A stretch of 64,000 nucleotides of DNA from Parapedobacter defluvii (GTDB taxonomy: Bacteria > Bacteroidota > Bacteroidia > Sphingobacteriales > Sphingobacteriaceae): contig NZ_BMIK01000007.1 in the NCBI RefSeq assembly GCF_014642075.1, positions 124,001 through 188,000 of the forward strand, read 5' to 3'. Under the pieces are notes generated by a model. That model was not told where the DNA came from. It did not search any database and was given only the letters and a program-made list of their open reading frames with translations. Shown here one piece after another: positions 11,159 to 14,264 of this stretch. How positions within the stretch are numbered: position 1 is the first letter of the stretch; each line of letters begins with the position of its first letter. The position numbers and the translations under genes were made by a program.

Positions 11159-12553
11159 ATGGAGCGGCTTTATTTTTTTCTAACGACTCTCCTGTGCATG
11201 CTGTTCAATGGCTATGGATTGGCTCAGGAGCGCCCGGTTTGGGAGAATGACTTCCGGGAACGGTTTTCCAAGGTTGTGGACGACATTGAAAAGCGTCACC
11301 ACATCACCATCCAATACGATTCGGCGAAACTAGCACAACTATGGGTTGCTTTTGCCCAGTGGCAATACCGCACAACCCCTGCACAGACACTCACAAACGT
11401 ACTTGCTCCCTTGCCGCTGACCTACCGCCAACTGGATGACAGCACGTACCGCATCACCAGTTATGAGTATTTCCGGAAGCATCCCGAGGAGGGAGCGCAG
11501 GAACTTGCGCGGTTGATGGCCAGTTATCGCACGTTGTCCCAATGGAAAAGTCGTTCCGGCGATTTATCTTCCTGCATCCGTGAAACGCTTGGCTTGCAAC
11601 GTATACACCGTACTCCGGTAACTGCGGCGGTAAAAAACTCCAAACGTCAATACGATGGCTATACCGTGGAAAATATTGCCATCGAAACGTTACCTGGATT
11701 TTACCTGGCGGGCTCTCTTTATGTCCCGACCGGTCATAGCGGGAAGCTGCCTGCCATGCTGTGTCCCAACGGGCACTTTGTCAGTGGACGGTACCGGCCC
11801 GATCATCAGTTGCGCTGCGCAATGCTGGCCAGGATGGGTGTCATCGCCGTTAGTTATGATCTGGTAGGCTATGGAGAGTCTATCCTGCAGCTTGAAGAAA
11901 GCGATCATCGCCGCAGCTTGACTGCTACCATACAAACGATCAACAATCTACGGATGCTCGATTTTATCTACGGCCTTGCAGCGGTTGATACGAGCCGAAT
12001 CGGCATTACCGGCGCATCGGGTGGAGGAAGTCAATCTATCTTAGTGACTGCCCTGGATGATCGCATTAAATTAAGCGTGCCGGTCGTAATGGTCTCTTCC
12101 TATTTCTCTGGAGGATGTCCCTGCGAAACCGGAGCGGGGCATCATTTCTGTGGCGGTGGCACCAACAACGTCGAAATTGCGGCAATGGCTGCTCCCCGGC
12201 CCCAGTTGCTTATTTCCGATGGCAACGATTGGACGGCTGACTTCCCCGCTATTGATCTGCCTTATCTGAAGCAGGTATACAGTTTATACAATCAGGAGGA
12301 CTTGATACAAAATGTCCACCTTCCTAACGATAAACACGACTATGGCCCTGCGAAACGCCAGGCCATGTACGCCTTTGTTGCGGAACATTTTTCGCTGGAA
12401 ACACCGCCCTTCAAAGATCCTTCGGGCCACTTCTCGGAGGAAGGCTGCGTGGTGGAAGAGGAAGCGAAACTTTATACGTTTGAAATGGACAGCCAAAAAC
12501 TGCCAGCTAATGCGTTACACGGCTTTGCCCAATTGCAAGAGGCGCTGCGTTGA
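11159..12553 (+). CDS. Secreted alpha/beta hydrolase with N-terminal STN-like domain
   Basis: Exported hydrolase of 464 residues, related to the acetyl-xylan-esterase / dienelactone-hydrolase type families. A signal peptide (about 1-22, ending GLAQE) leads into about 70 residues (32-100) that read like an STN domain: KVVDDIEKRHHITIQYD, then PAQTLTNVLAPLPLTYRQ and DDSTYRI. The hydrolase domain follows (about 165-415), with nucleophile elbow GASGG (Ser 287), an Asp in ISDGNDWTADFP (354 or 357) and His 393 in NDKHDYG. A cysteine cluster GGCPCETGAGHHFC sits at 318-331. The true substrate is unknown; a carbohydrate or polyphenol ester is plausible. It stands alone and converges on sufD across the 11-bp array. 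The candidate -7 element TATATTCG ends only 7 bp before the ATG. Confidence 0.8.
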   Translation: MERLYFFLTTLLCMLFNGYGLAQERPVWENDFRERFSKVVDDIEKRHHITIQYDSAKLAQLWVAFAQWQYRTTPAQTLTNVLAPLPLTYRQLDDSTYRITSYEYFRKHPEEGAQELARLMASYRTLSQWKSRSGDLSSCIRETLGLQRIHRTPVTAAVKNSKRQYDGYTVENIAIETLPGFYLAGSLYVPTGHSGKLPAMLCPNGHFVSGRYRPDHQLRCAMLARMGVIAVSYDLVGYGESILQLEESDHRRSLTATIQTINNLRMLDFIYGLAAVDTSRIGITGASGGGSQSILVTALDDRIKLSVPVVMVSSYFSGGCPCETGAGHHFCGGGTNNVEIAAMAAPRPQLLISDGNDWTADFPAIDLPYLKQVYSLYNQEDLIQNVHLPNDKHDYGPAKRQAMYAFVAEHFSLETPPFKDPSGHFSEEGCVVEEEAKLYTFEMDSQKLPANALHGFAQLQEALR

Positions 12554-12629
12554 TTTGGGCAGCCGTATCCCTGATAAGCGCCTCCCTTAGCCCTAATTTA
12601 CCCTTTTTATACCTTTTCTTTACTTCCCT

Positions 12630-12882
12630 GGTAAGGAAATGGTAAGGAAATGGTAAGCCTGTGGTAAGGAAATGGTAAGCCTGTGGTAAGGAAATGGTAA
12701 GCCTGTGGTAAGGAAATGGTAAGGCGGAGGTAAAGAAATGGTAAGCCTGTGGTAAGGAAATGGTAAGGCGGAGGTAAAGAAATGGTAAGCCTGTGGTAAA
12801 GGAAAAGTAAGTCAGCAGTAAGCGAGAACTAACCAATTGGTAAGTAAATGGTAAGCAAGTGGTAATAACGAGGTAACAAACG
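12630..12882. repeat. Tandem array of 23 units of exactly 11 bp (GGTAAGnnnnn)
   Basis: Twenty-three head-to-tail 11-bp units with no slippage in phase. All 23 carry TAA at positions 3-5 and 20 begin GGTAA. The main variants are GGTAAGGAAAT, GGTAAGCCTGT, GGTAAGGCGGA and GGTAAAGAAAT. The first two alternate (22-bp period), and a 44-bp higher-order unit is repeated at 12718-12761 and from 12762. The last units (12806-12838) diverge, then order returns. It fills most of the 412-bp gap between the convergent hydrolase gene and sufD; the remaining gap (12554-12629 and 12883-12965) shows nothing I can name. Since 11 is not a multiple of 3 the array does not look coding. Unit length is close to one helical turn. 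Confidence 0.95.
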
Positions 12883-12965
12883 TCCCCGTGCTTTTAGGTG
12901 TGTCTCCACAGCACCGTCAAGACGTCCCGACCGCCAACACATATCCGCACGGCAACGGGACAAGG

Positions 12966-14264
12966 CTAAAGCCCTTCTTCCACTAAATGCTCAACATACT
13001 CCCGTACTACGGTATTGGCAAAGCGACTGGTCACATCAAACGCAAAGGCGTGCACCAGCAGTACCCGTGCCTGTGCCTCGCTGATGCCTCTTGCCCGAAG
13101 GTAAAATAACGCTTCGTTATCAAACTGCCCGATCGTACAACCGTGGCTGCATTTGACATCATCGGCAAAAATCTCCAATTGAGGTTTGGTATACACCGCC
13201 GATTTTTCACCGATGAGCATGTTATTGTTCTGTTGGAAGGCGTTCGTTTTCTGGGCATCGGGACGCACAAATATCTTCCCGTTGAATACCGCCGTAGACG
13301 TATCCTGTGTGATGTTCTTATACCATTCGTAACTCTCGCAATGGGGATGGATATGGTCTACGATGGTGTGGTTGTCTACAAACTGATTGTCGGCCGTAAG
13401 GGTCACGCCGTACAAATGGCTCTCTACTTCGCTATCGCCCAACCGTACGTTGATGTTATTCCGTACAAATGCAGGCCCCGGAAATGTGCAATTGTAATTA
13501 TTATACAGACTGTGCTTTTCCTGATATACCTCCGTATGGTTAAGATAACTGCCTTGTGAAGCCGCCGTCTGCAAATAGTAATGCTGAAACTTAGCTCCTT
13601 CACGTACCACGATTTCCGTCACCTGGTTATTCAGGCTACGTGCCGCTTGCGGATCTGTTACAAATGATTCCACGATTTCCGCTTCCGCGAAGGTACTGAT
13701 CACATATAGGTTACGCACCTGATTAAATACCGGCTGACGCGCGTTGGATACATAGATCACGTGGATGGGCTTTGACAACTGGGTGTTTTTACCCACTTCG
13801 ATAAATAACCCAGCGGTAAACAGCGCTGTATTCAGCGTTACAAACGGATTATCCGTTTTGTCGGCAAACTCAGCAAAATACTTGGCAAAGCAAAGGCGTT
13901 CAAACGCCTGATCAATGGGCATGATGGACAAGCCCGGCATATCAACCGTATCCGAAAGTCCCGCGTGATATTTTCCGTCCACCAATACCACACGGTAGGC
14001 ATCCAGTTGAGGAATATTAGCACCATCAAGATCGACCGCTACCAAAGATGGTTCGGCATCCAGTTCGTAATGCTGACTGATAAGCGGTTGGACATTGGTG
14101 TATTTCCAATCCTCATTTTTGACAGTGGGAAATCCGGTACTTTTGAAGCGTTCAAACGCCTGCTTCCGGATTTCATCCAACGAACGGGGTTCTGCGGAGG
14201 GCAGGTTCCCGCCGTAGGTTTTAATCAATTGACTATATAATGAATCGCTTACTTGTGTAATCAT
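12966..14264 (-). CDS. sufD: Fe-S cluster assembly protein SufD
   Basis: Scaffold subunit of the SufBCD complex (SufB-SufC2-SufD), on which Fe-S clusters are built in the cytosol. The 432 residues have the variable helical N-terminus (RKQAFERFKSTGFPTVKNED, WKYTNVQPL) and the beta-helix core. The C-terminal block holds the conserved KCSHG (DDVKCSHGCTIGQFDNEALF) with the Cys and His of the SufB-SufD interface, then YLRARGI and ARVLLVHAFA. It is last in the sufB-sufC-sufD operon, 17 bp after sufC. No sufS or sufE follows; the 11-bp array lies downstream. Confidence 0.96.
   Translation of the reverse strand: MITQVSDSLYSQLIKTYGGNLPSAEPRSLDEIRKQAFERFKSTGFPTVKNEDWKYTNVQPLISQHYELDAEPSLVAVDLDGANIPQLDAYRVVLVDGKYHAGLSDTVDMPGLSIMPIDQAFERLCFAKYFAEFADKTDNPFVTLNTALFTAGLFIEVGKNTQLSKPIHVIYVSNARQPVFNQVRNLYVISTFAEAEIVESFVTDPQAARSLNNQVTEIVVREGAKFQHYYLQTAASQGSYLNHTEVYQEKHSLYNNYNCTFPGPAFVRNNINVRLGDSEVESHLYGVTLTADNQFVDNHTIVDHIHPHCESYEWYKNITQDTSTAVFNGKIFVRPDAQKTNAFQQNNNMLIGEKSAVYTKPQLEIFADDVKCSHGCTIGQFDNEALFYLRARGISEAQARVLLVHAFAFDVTSRFANTVVREYVEHLVEEGL

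Follow-up and report, generated by a model that had tools for sequence, protein, structure and literature searches.

Streptomyces BldC assembles head-to-tail on direct repeats into extended filaments, and at smeA-sffA the protected tracts lie one helical turn apart. The protein has 68 amino acids and consists of a winged helix-turn-helix (wHTH) only, and the cases described in the available text of the paper have two to four sites of 9-bp repeats (PMC5859096). RdfS occupies DNA at about one molecule per 10 bp, on sites that have no apparent consensus in the available part of its description (PMC11963761).

Here, we analyse an array of 11-bp direct repeats in a stretch of 64,000 nucleotides of Parapedobacter defluvii (genome G000), called the window, together with its relatives and the small HTH proteins encoded beside some of them. 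As far as the BldC text goes, the arrays resemble the smeA-sffA sites, being direct repeats in varying number one helical turn apart, but they have 11-bp units, up to 25 of them, in two opposed arms. The proteins resemble BldC, as it is characterised in the same text, in the fold of their small, MerR-like winged HTH and in the arginine kept in the recognition helix; unlike BldC, they carry an N-terminal helix and belong to a multi-copy cassette of Bacteroidota. With RdfS and phage Xis they have in common the HTH_17-type winged HTH, which in the systems described oligomerises head-to-tail on DNA. In contrast to the RdfS sites of that description, the core of the arrays is strongly conserved, and inspection of the nine listed cassette loci by eye revealed no adjacent integrase.

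ParR/parC and phage iteron origins are also built from short direct repeats in clusters, of which parC has two placed around a centre, and the arrays have such clustered short repeats too. Unlike parC and iteron origins they occur several times per chromosome, and in the single-contig genome G286 three out of seven run along the replication direction, with the origin taken from coarse GC skew. Neither partition genes nor motor genes of the ParM/TubZ type were recognised by eye among the listed neighbours of the arrays. Ordinary bacterial minisatellites can likewise be tandem 11-bp units that change copy number by whole units; the arrays differ from them in the uneven conservation of the unit, the reverse arm, the orthologous retention and the linkage to genes.

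The array in the window

The array consists of 23 consecutive units of exactly 11 bp, as the initial annotation had it, and TRF detects it independently with a score of 267 at period 22 and 140 at period 11. The GGTAAG with which the unit was written there is not invariant, as opposed to its TAA core: TAA, at unit positions 3-5, is present in 23/23 units, GGTAA in 20/23 and GGTAAG in 15/23. A higher-order unit of 44 bp was also described, and it was recovered here. The self-match of the array is 0.77 for a shift of 22 bp and 0.78 for one of 44 bp, and positions 12707-12750 and 12751-12794 are exact copies, which looks like a sign of recent expansion by whole units. Tail units similar to those of the window are found at the same end of several other arrays. 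The statement that the array has no dyad does not hold. Directly to its left there are four units in reverse orientation; one fits TTACC exactly and the other three differ from it at one position each, and as the four are in the same 11-bp register the element has two arms and a dyad, see Table 1.

Table 1. Features of the window, with the recognition helices and cores that are proposed to belong together in the last row.
Feature	Position	Strand	Description or basis
Left arm	12586..12629	-	four reverse 11-bp units, in register with right arm
Dyad centre	12619..12634	.	here TTTACT-N5-GGTAA; usual form YTACC-N5-GGTAA
Right arm	12630..12882	+	23 units of 11 bp in direct orientation, each with TAA
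Four-unit block of 44 bp, duplicated exactly in tandem	12707..12794	+	self-comparison
Diverged tail units (AGTAAG.., ACTAA.., GGTAAGCAA..)	12806..12882	+	comparison of printed arrays
Hydrolase gene, weak AXE1 / Peptidase_S15 matches, convergent	11159..12553	+	ORF and profile match
SufD gene (SUFBD_core)	12966..14264	-	ORF and profile match
Recognition helices in the proposed filament system			T-L-R-R or T-Y-K-R with core GGTAA; T-Y-Y-R, S-Y-Y-R or S-Y-F-R with TCGAA; T-L-L-R with CGTAA

The position between convergent genes would suit an RNA element, structured or translated, or a terminator or roadblock for the two genes. The predicted fold is worse than or like that of shuffled sequences (z of +2.1 and +0.4), and Rfam gave no match at the gathering score for window positions 12300-13200 and ten loci, with one match at chance level. 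Translation is opposed by the GGTAA strand of the GGTAA arrays, where every frame contains stops, and the claim that there is no coding phase stands for this strand. On the other one TTACC itself yields no stop in any frame, and an ORF of 109 aa (12507-12836) spans most of the array; TCGAA arrays, described below, are open to translation. A roadblock for convergent genes, together with a mostly convergent location of such arrays, had been suggested initially, and it is unsupported because only two out of 13 locus groups are convergent, with six divergent and five codirectional (our own reading, in which all HTH-DUF6266 places form one group and the ambiguous L046 is scored as codirectional). 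Most relatives are thus outside convergent gene pairs, and we regard a role as RNA, terminator or roadblock as highly improbable. The location next to suf genes does not recur either, as by eye none of the other Parapedobacter arrays (24 in total) adjoins them.

Curved or easily wrapped DNA could be functional with no specific protein, or through wrapping by gyrase. AA and TA steps do recur at each turn, and with a wedge table three out of 14 arrays exceed at least 98/100 shuffles in bending. A roll-only table singles out L231 alone among the 14, and for the window array 17/100 shuffles (wedge) or 91/100 (roll-only) are at least as bent. The consistent curvature that had been considered for the array is not seen, and bendability alone would not require the uniform cores that each array shows. 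We find this explanation very unlikely.

Distribution of the arrays

A strict pattern of four GGTAA units was found in 24 out of 301 genomes of the bacterial family, in 3 out of 25 genera, and the same pattern read backwards gave no match in the 301 genomes. With one mismatch allowed, arrays are present in 6/9 Parapedobacter genomes, compared with one match of the backwards control over all nine. The window genome has four GGTAA arrays, all with the two-arm plan. The bare pattern is not confined to the family: a scan of 84,980 species gave at least 117 stretches, many of them in unrelated bacteria. The class-wide search for the two-arm pattern gave, besides G000, one match in 294 genomes, a draw that omitted the other known array-bearing relatives, and this match is probably due to chance.

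The reverse core nearest to the edge of the right arm is at exactly 5 bp in 20 of the 24 Parapedobacter arrays and at 16 bp in two; in the other two no reverse core was found. The number of forward units ranges from 5 to 25. The initial annotation expected several intergenic arrays per genome with conserved phase and variable copy number if the array had a function, and this is largely what is found, with four arrays here and others in the related genomes. Neutral slippage was to be favoured if the array were unique to one strain or if the unit length varied freely. Arrays do occur in other strains and genera, and the period is fixed while the number of units varies.

The place between erpA and ileS holds arrays in 5/9 Parapedobacter genomes, with different numbers of units, and the flanks at this place do not align between genomes. 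In G005 the array at this place has a second core, TCGAA, in an 11-bp two-arm plan with the longer arm on the opposite side, so an independent origin of this array is possible. The CGAA pattern is found in 8/9 Parapedobacter genomes, among them G000; in two of the eight it matches just once, and the backwards control has two matches in total. The TCGAA set comprises 20 loci among the matches listed, including the weak L230, L232 and L239; L052 is weak as well. G005 has 175 CGAA pattern matches in a genome of 3.6 Mb, and the loci L240-L246 and L205 of this genome have a palindromic centre that is strongly kept and resembles TTCGGAACGCAACGGATTGCAC. At six loci (L227, L228, L229, L235, L236, L246) TCGAA arrays are located just before thioredoxin/TlpA-like genes with signal peptides, and in open frame with them (by eye). 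The leaders of some of these TlpA-like genes contain further 11-bp runs with the cores AGCG and CCAAG. All neighbouring genes were called as mechanical ORFs, and ileS, clpC, fabI, dnaK, ribD, sdhC, murI and TlpA were named by eye.

Most of the printed Pedobacter arrays close with a fixed series that includes a GGTTAAC-type unit. A tRNA-Met (CAT) was found by ARAGORN at most about 500 bp from the array in two loci (L435:2999-3073 and L449:3708-3782), possibly an insertion hot spot. Similar units (GGTAACC.., GGTAAAGAAAA) are seen in Niastella (L105, L130), there with a reverse arm, and in Longitalea (L117, L136, L139).

A generic period scan of the fetched loci, which is biased as the loci were chosen for having arrays, found 56 clusters with period 11, compared with 0-8 for each of the remaining periods between 7 and 15. 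In unbiased samples such arrays are rare: the period-11 scan of 464 kb of G000 found the window array only, and 200 kb of G008 contained a single array (L272:7861-7960), upstream of a DUF6266-like gene. The latter array has a CGGA core and overlaps the end of the preceding ORF. A literature search gave nothing concerning array-bearing bacteria among the matches listed.

Arrays beside HTH_17 and DUF6266 genes

An HTH_17-like gene adjoins the array in four Pedobacter loci (L438, L440, L441, L446), in one locus of a third genus (L453) and, in Parapedobacter, at six GGTAA arrays (L048, L053, L055, L058, L060, L063) and four TCGAA arrays (L231, L233, L237, L238). All of these except L063 have a DUF6266 gene within 2.6 kb, which is incomplete in L440. 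The full cassette, present in several copies, runs from the excisionase-like HTH_17 gene through the array to the DUF6266 gene. In the Pedobacter cassettes a membrane-like protein and an endolysin-like gene come next.

The association was examined from three sides. Starting from the arrays, a match to the HTH, to DUF6266 or to both is found no more than 2.6 kb away in 20 out of 64 loci, compared with 1/120 background tiles of 5.3 kb. The 64 loci are 24 GGTAA and 20 listed TCGAA loci of Parapedobacter and 20 loci of Pedobacter and others, each represented by its best array. For 44/64 arrays there is no cassette part nearby, and within 2.6 kb of the window array neither an HTH gene nor a DUF6266 remnant was found.

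Starting from HTH genes with at least 100 bits, a GGTAA array is located directly downstream in six out of eight GGTAA-type genes, and a TCGAA array accompanies all five TCGAA-type genes, with no crossed pairs. Hence, 11/13 strong HTH genes adjoin direct repeats about one helical turn apart. This set overlaps the previous one, as 10/13 were already known; the new ones are L498, which has an array, and L489 and L495, with no matching array. Both L489 (G008) and L495 (G006) have the recognition helix TLRR of the array-linked HTHs, the former with no array within 450 bp and the latter with only a weak array of a different core.

DUF6266 genes are present in 60/121 genomes of the family, with up to 19 copies per genome. 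In the third comparison, a fixed region of 450 bp upstream of 30 of these genes, one per genome, was compared with shuffles. The mean z is 2.9 at period 10 and 3.0 at period 11, and at most 0.64 at the remaining periods from 6 to 17, while a control region, for which the final 450 bp of the loci were used, gives 0.2 at period 10 and 0.1 at period 11. A z above 2 is reached at period 10 and/or 11 by 27/30 loci and at period 10 by 20/30. The cores of these repeats differ by locus. At L455-L484, period-10 direct repeats (GTCAAACGCC, GCAAA.., CAAAG.., GCCAA..) are located about 120-170 bp upstream of many DUF6266 starts, followed just downstream by TAnnTTTG, which we take to be a promoter-like box. 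The model of the DUF6266 protein from L438 (pLDDT 82.5) has an N-terminal helical part and an FN3-like beta-sandwich. A literature search on DUF6266 found no paper.

Conservation and decay

In 345 units, T3 and A4 are conserved at 1.00 and G1, G2, A5 and A9 at 0.80-0.92, while positions 10-11 are near random, and the profile of the reverse arm is similar. Between adjacent units the agreement is 0.874 for the core and 0.498 for the spacer; the ends of the arrays were set by the core match, and the core is favoured there. The TA is kept in 74/74, 96/97 and 61/62 distinct units of three groups. The 11-bp phase is mostly kept, with one-base shifts in L047, L048, L068, L079, L450-L452 and the Longitalea loci. 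In a neutral minisatellite the substitutions should be even over the unit, which is not the case here, and these profiles point to selection and not to drift.

Five stand-alone Pedobacter arrays (L436, L442, L443, L444, L449) retain pieces of the HTH gene (3' end), of the DUF6266 gene (5' end) or of both. Aligned to intact copies, the arrays of these five loci and of L445 have an identity of 0.90-0.97 and no indel except one whole unit, and the gene remnants have 0.40-0.91 and are mostly gapped. The first 200 bp downstream of the arrays are nearly as well kept (0.87-0.93, one pair 0.78). Between intact Pedobacter cassettes the arrays are at 0.82-0.92, below the HTH end at 0.91-0.98.

The window array could then be a neutral slippage minisatellite or the decaying relic of a lost cassette. 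Its exact duplication and the range of unit numbers show slippage by whole units, decayed cassettes do leave stand-alone arrays, and viral contigs often carry ordinary minisatellites of 11 bp. The difference between core and spacer, with two positions fixed, and the better preservation of arrays than of gene remnants in the decayed copies, even if the 200 bp of flank are nearly as well kept, argue against both versions. We consider a minisatellite or a relic unlikely.

The HTH protein and the core

The cassette HTH proteins have 89-116 aa, with an N-terminal helical extension in addition to the wHTH. Their sequence profile matches the BldC structures 6amk (1.4e-7) and 6ama (3.4e-7); the top match overall is a designed coiled coil, aligned to the N-terminal helix. 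When the AlphaFold2 model (mean pLDDT 70.5) was compared with the PDB using Foldseek, the first rows were 6ama/6amk, with TMt 0.70-0.80 and a best E of 1.4e-3, and the next matches include Pukovnik Xis and RdfS. Several excisionase families are also among the PHROGs matches. According to the profile and the model, the closest natural relative is Streptomyces BldC. By the NCBIfam cut-off the proteins are outside the BldC family, as L053 and L460 reach 25.8 and 25.0 bits with HTH_BldC against a cut-off of 77, and L438 and L237 have no match to it. An arginine that is invariant in 16/16 HTHs aligns with BldC Arg30, preceding Trp31.

Residue 3 of the recognition helix is R or K in 12 GGTAA-linked HTHs, Y or F in four TCGAA-linked ones and L in one that is CGTAA-linked; the exceptions are L489 and L495, which have R and no GGTAA array. 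The Pedobacter GGTAA-type HTH is at 46% to the Parapedobacter TCGAA-type and at 24% to the GGTAA-type, so the core does not simply track the ancestry of the HTH. The agreement between HTH and core may still come merely from the shared ancestry of cassettes of one subfamily. In G000 and G001, which both have GGTAA arrays, no close GGTAA-type HTH was found (best 22 bits). The profile search of G000 gave 11 HTH matches, one of them inside its TCGAA cassette, and any of these could be the reader of the window array.

Another DNA-binding protein, of the nucleoid, partition, silencing or replication-iteron type, might instead read the arrays, and the link to HTH_17 would then reflect shared cassette ancestry. 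In genomes that have no close GGTAA-type HTH, all 74 distinct GGTAA units keep the TA, and the repeated occupation of the erpA-ileS place fits such a reader as well. ParR/parC is a precedent. Opposed 11-bp GGTAA arms are also found in the viral contigs L340 and L341, and inward-facing ones in L321, and by eye the neighbours of the arrays in L340 and L321 resemble replication genes. On the other side, HTH subfamily and core agree in 11/11 array-bearing cassettes, which are not independent events, and the fold of the cassette HTH is the one known for head-to-tail binding. We see a different reader as possible, although not probable.

A phage origin of the arrays was considered and rejected. Among the best 18 viral matches, about 14 are by eye minisatellites of near-identical units, and none has a reverse arm of several units. 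Yet opposed arms occur in three out of 74 viral GGTAA matches, the contigs L340, L341 and L321 (TTTACC/GGTAAA units), and these are possibly iteron origins.

A proposed phased operator

A motif that recurs once per turn, in an array some of whose relatives are located beside HTH genes of a polymerising type, makes a landing strip for a protein likelier than a random stutter. RNA structure, consistent curvature, a roadblock for convergent genes and minisatellite drift all fit worse than an operator. The suggestion that a conserved face recurs with each helical turn is borne out, and its reading by a protein is supported, with the binding itself inferred. We propose that the array of the window serves as an operator made of direct repeats, along which a BldC/Xis-like protein builds two filaments in opposite directions, and give this about an even chance. 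The estimate is no higher because no close GGTAA-type HTH was found in G000, the array has no cassette remnant beside it, similar arrays occur in viral contigs and binding is deduced. For the arrays within cassettes an operator is, in our judgement, a more probable reading than for the window array.

According to the proposed mechanism, the array would offer one protein site per helical turn, and the HTH_17 protein would bind each 11-bp unit head-to-tail. Two filaments would then extend outward on either side of the dyad, and the GGTAA arm would carry the long one. Within cassettes, the DUF6266 operon would be controlled in this way. The window array would be a stand-alone copy of the operator, perhaps read by an HTH_17-like protein of G000 or kept from a lost cassette, a step in which we have less confidence.

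A wider version, which we find rather doubtful, is that the paralogous HTH_17 proteins of the DUF6266 cassettes form bidirectional filaments nucleated at the dyad, each on its own type of array (GGTAA, TCGAA, CGTAA and others), with the recognition helix tracking the core, and that stand-alone arrays are long-kept sites acting on unrelated genes. If true, the cassettes would be a natural set of matched pairs of protein and DNA array, with variation in core motif, period and copy number between the pairs. How BldC/Xis-like proteins select their DNA, and why they need helical phase, could then be tested directly. There would also be a first point of entry to the multi-copy family DUF6266, and some bacterial "minisatellites" may be operators.
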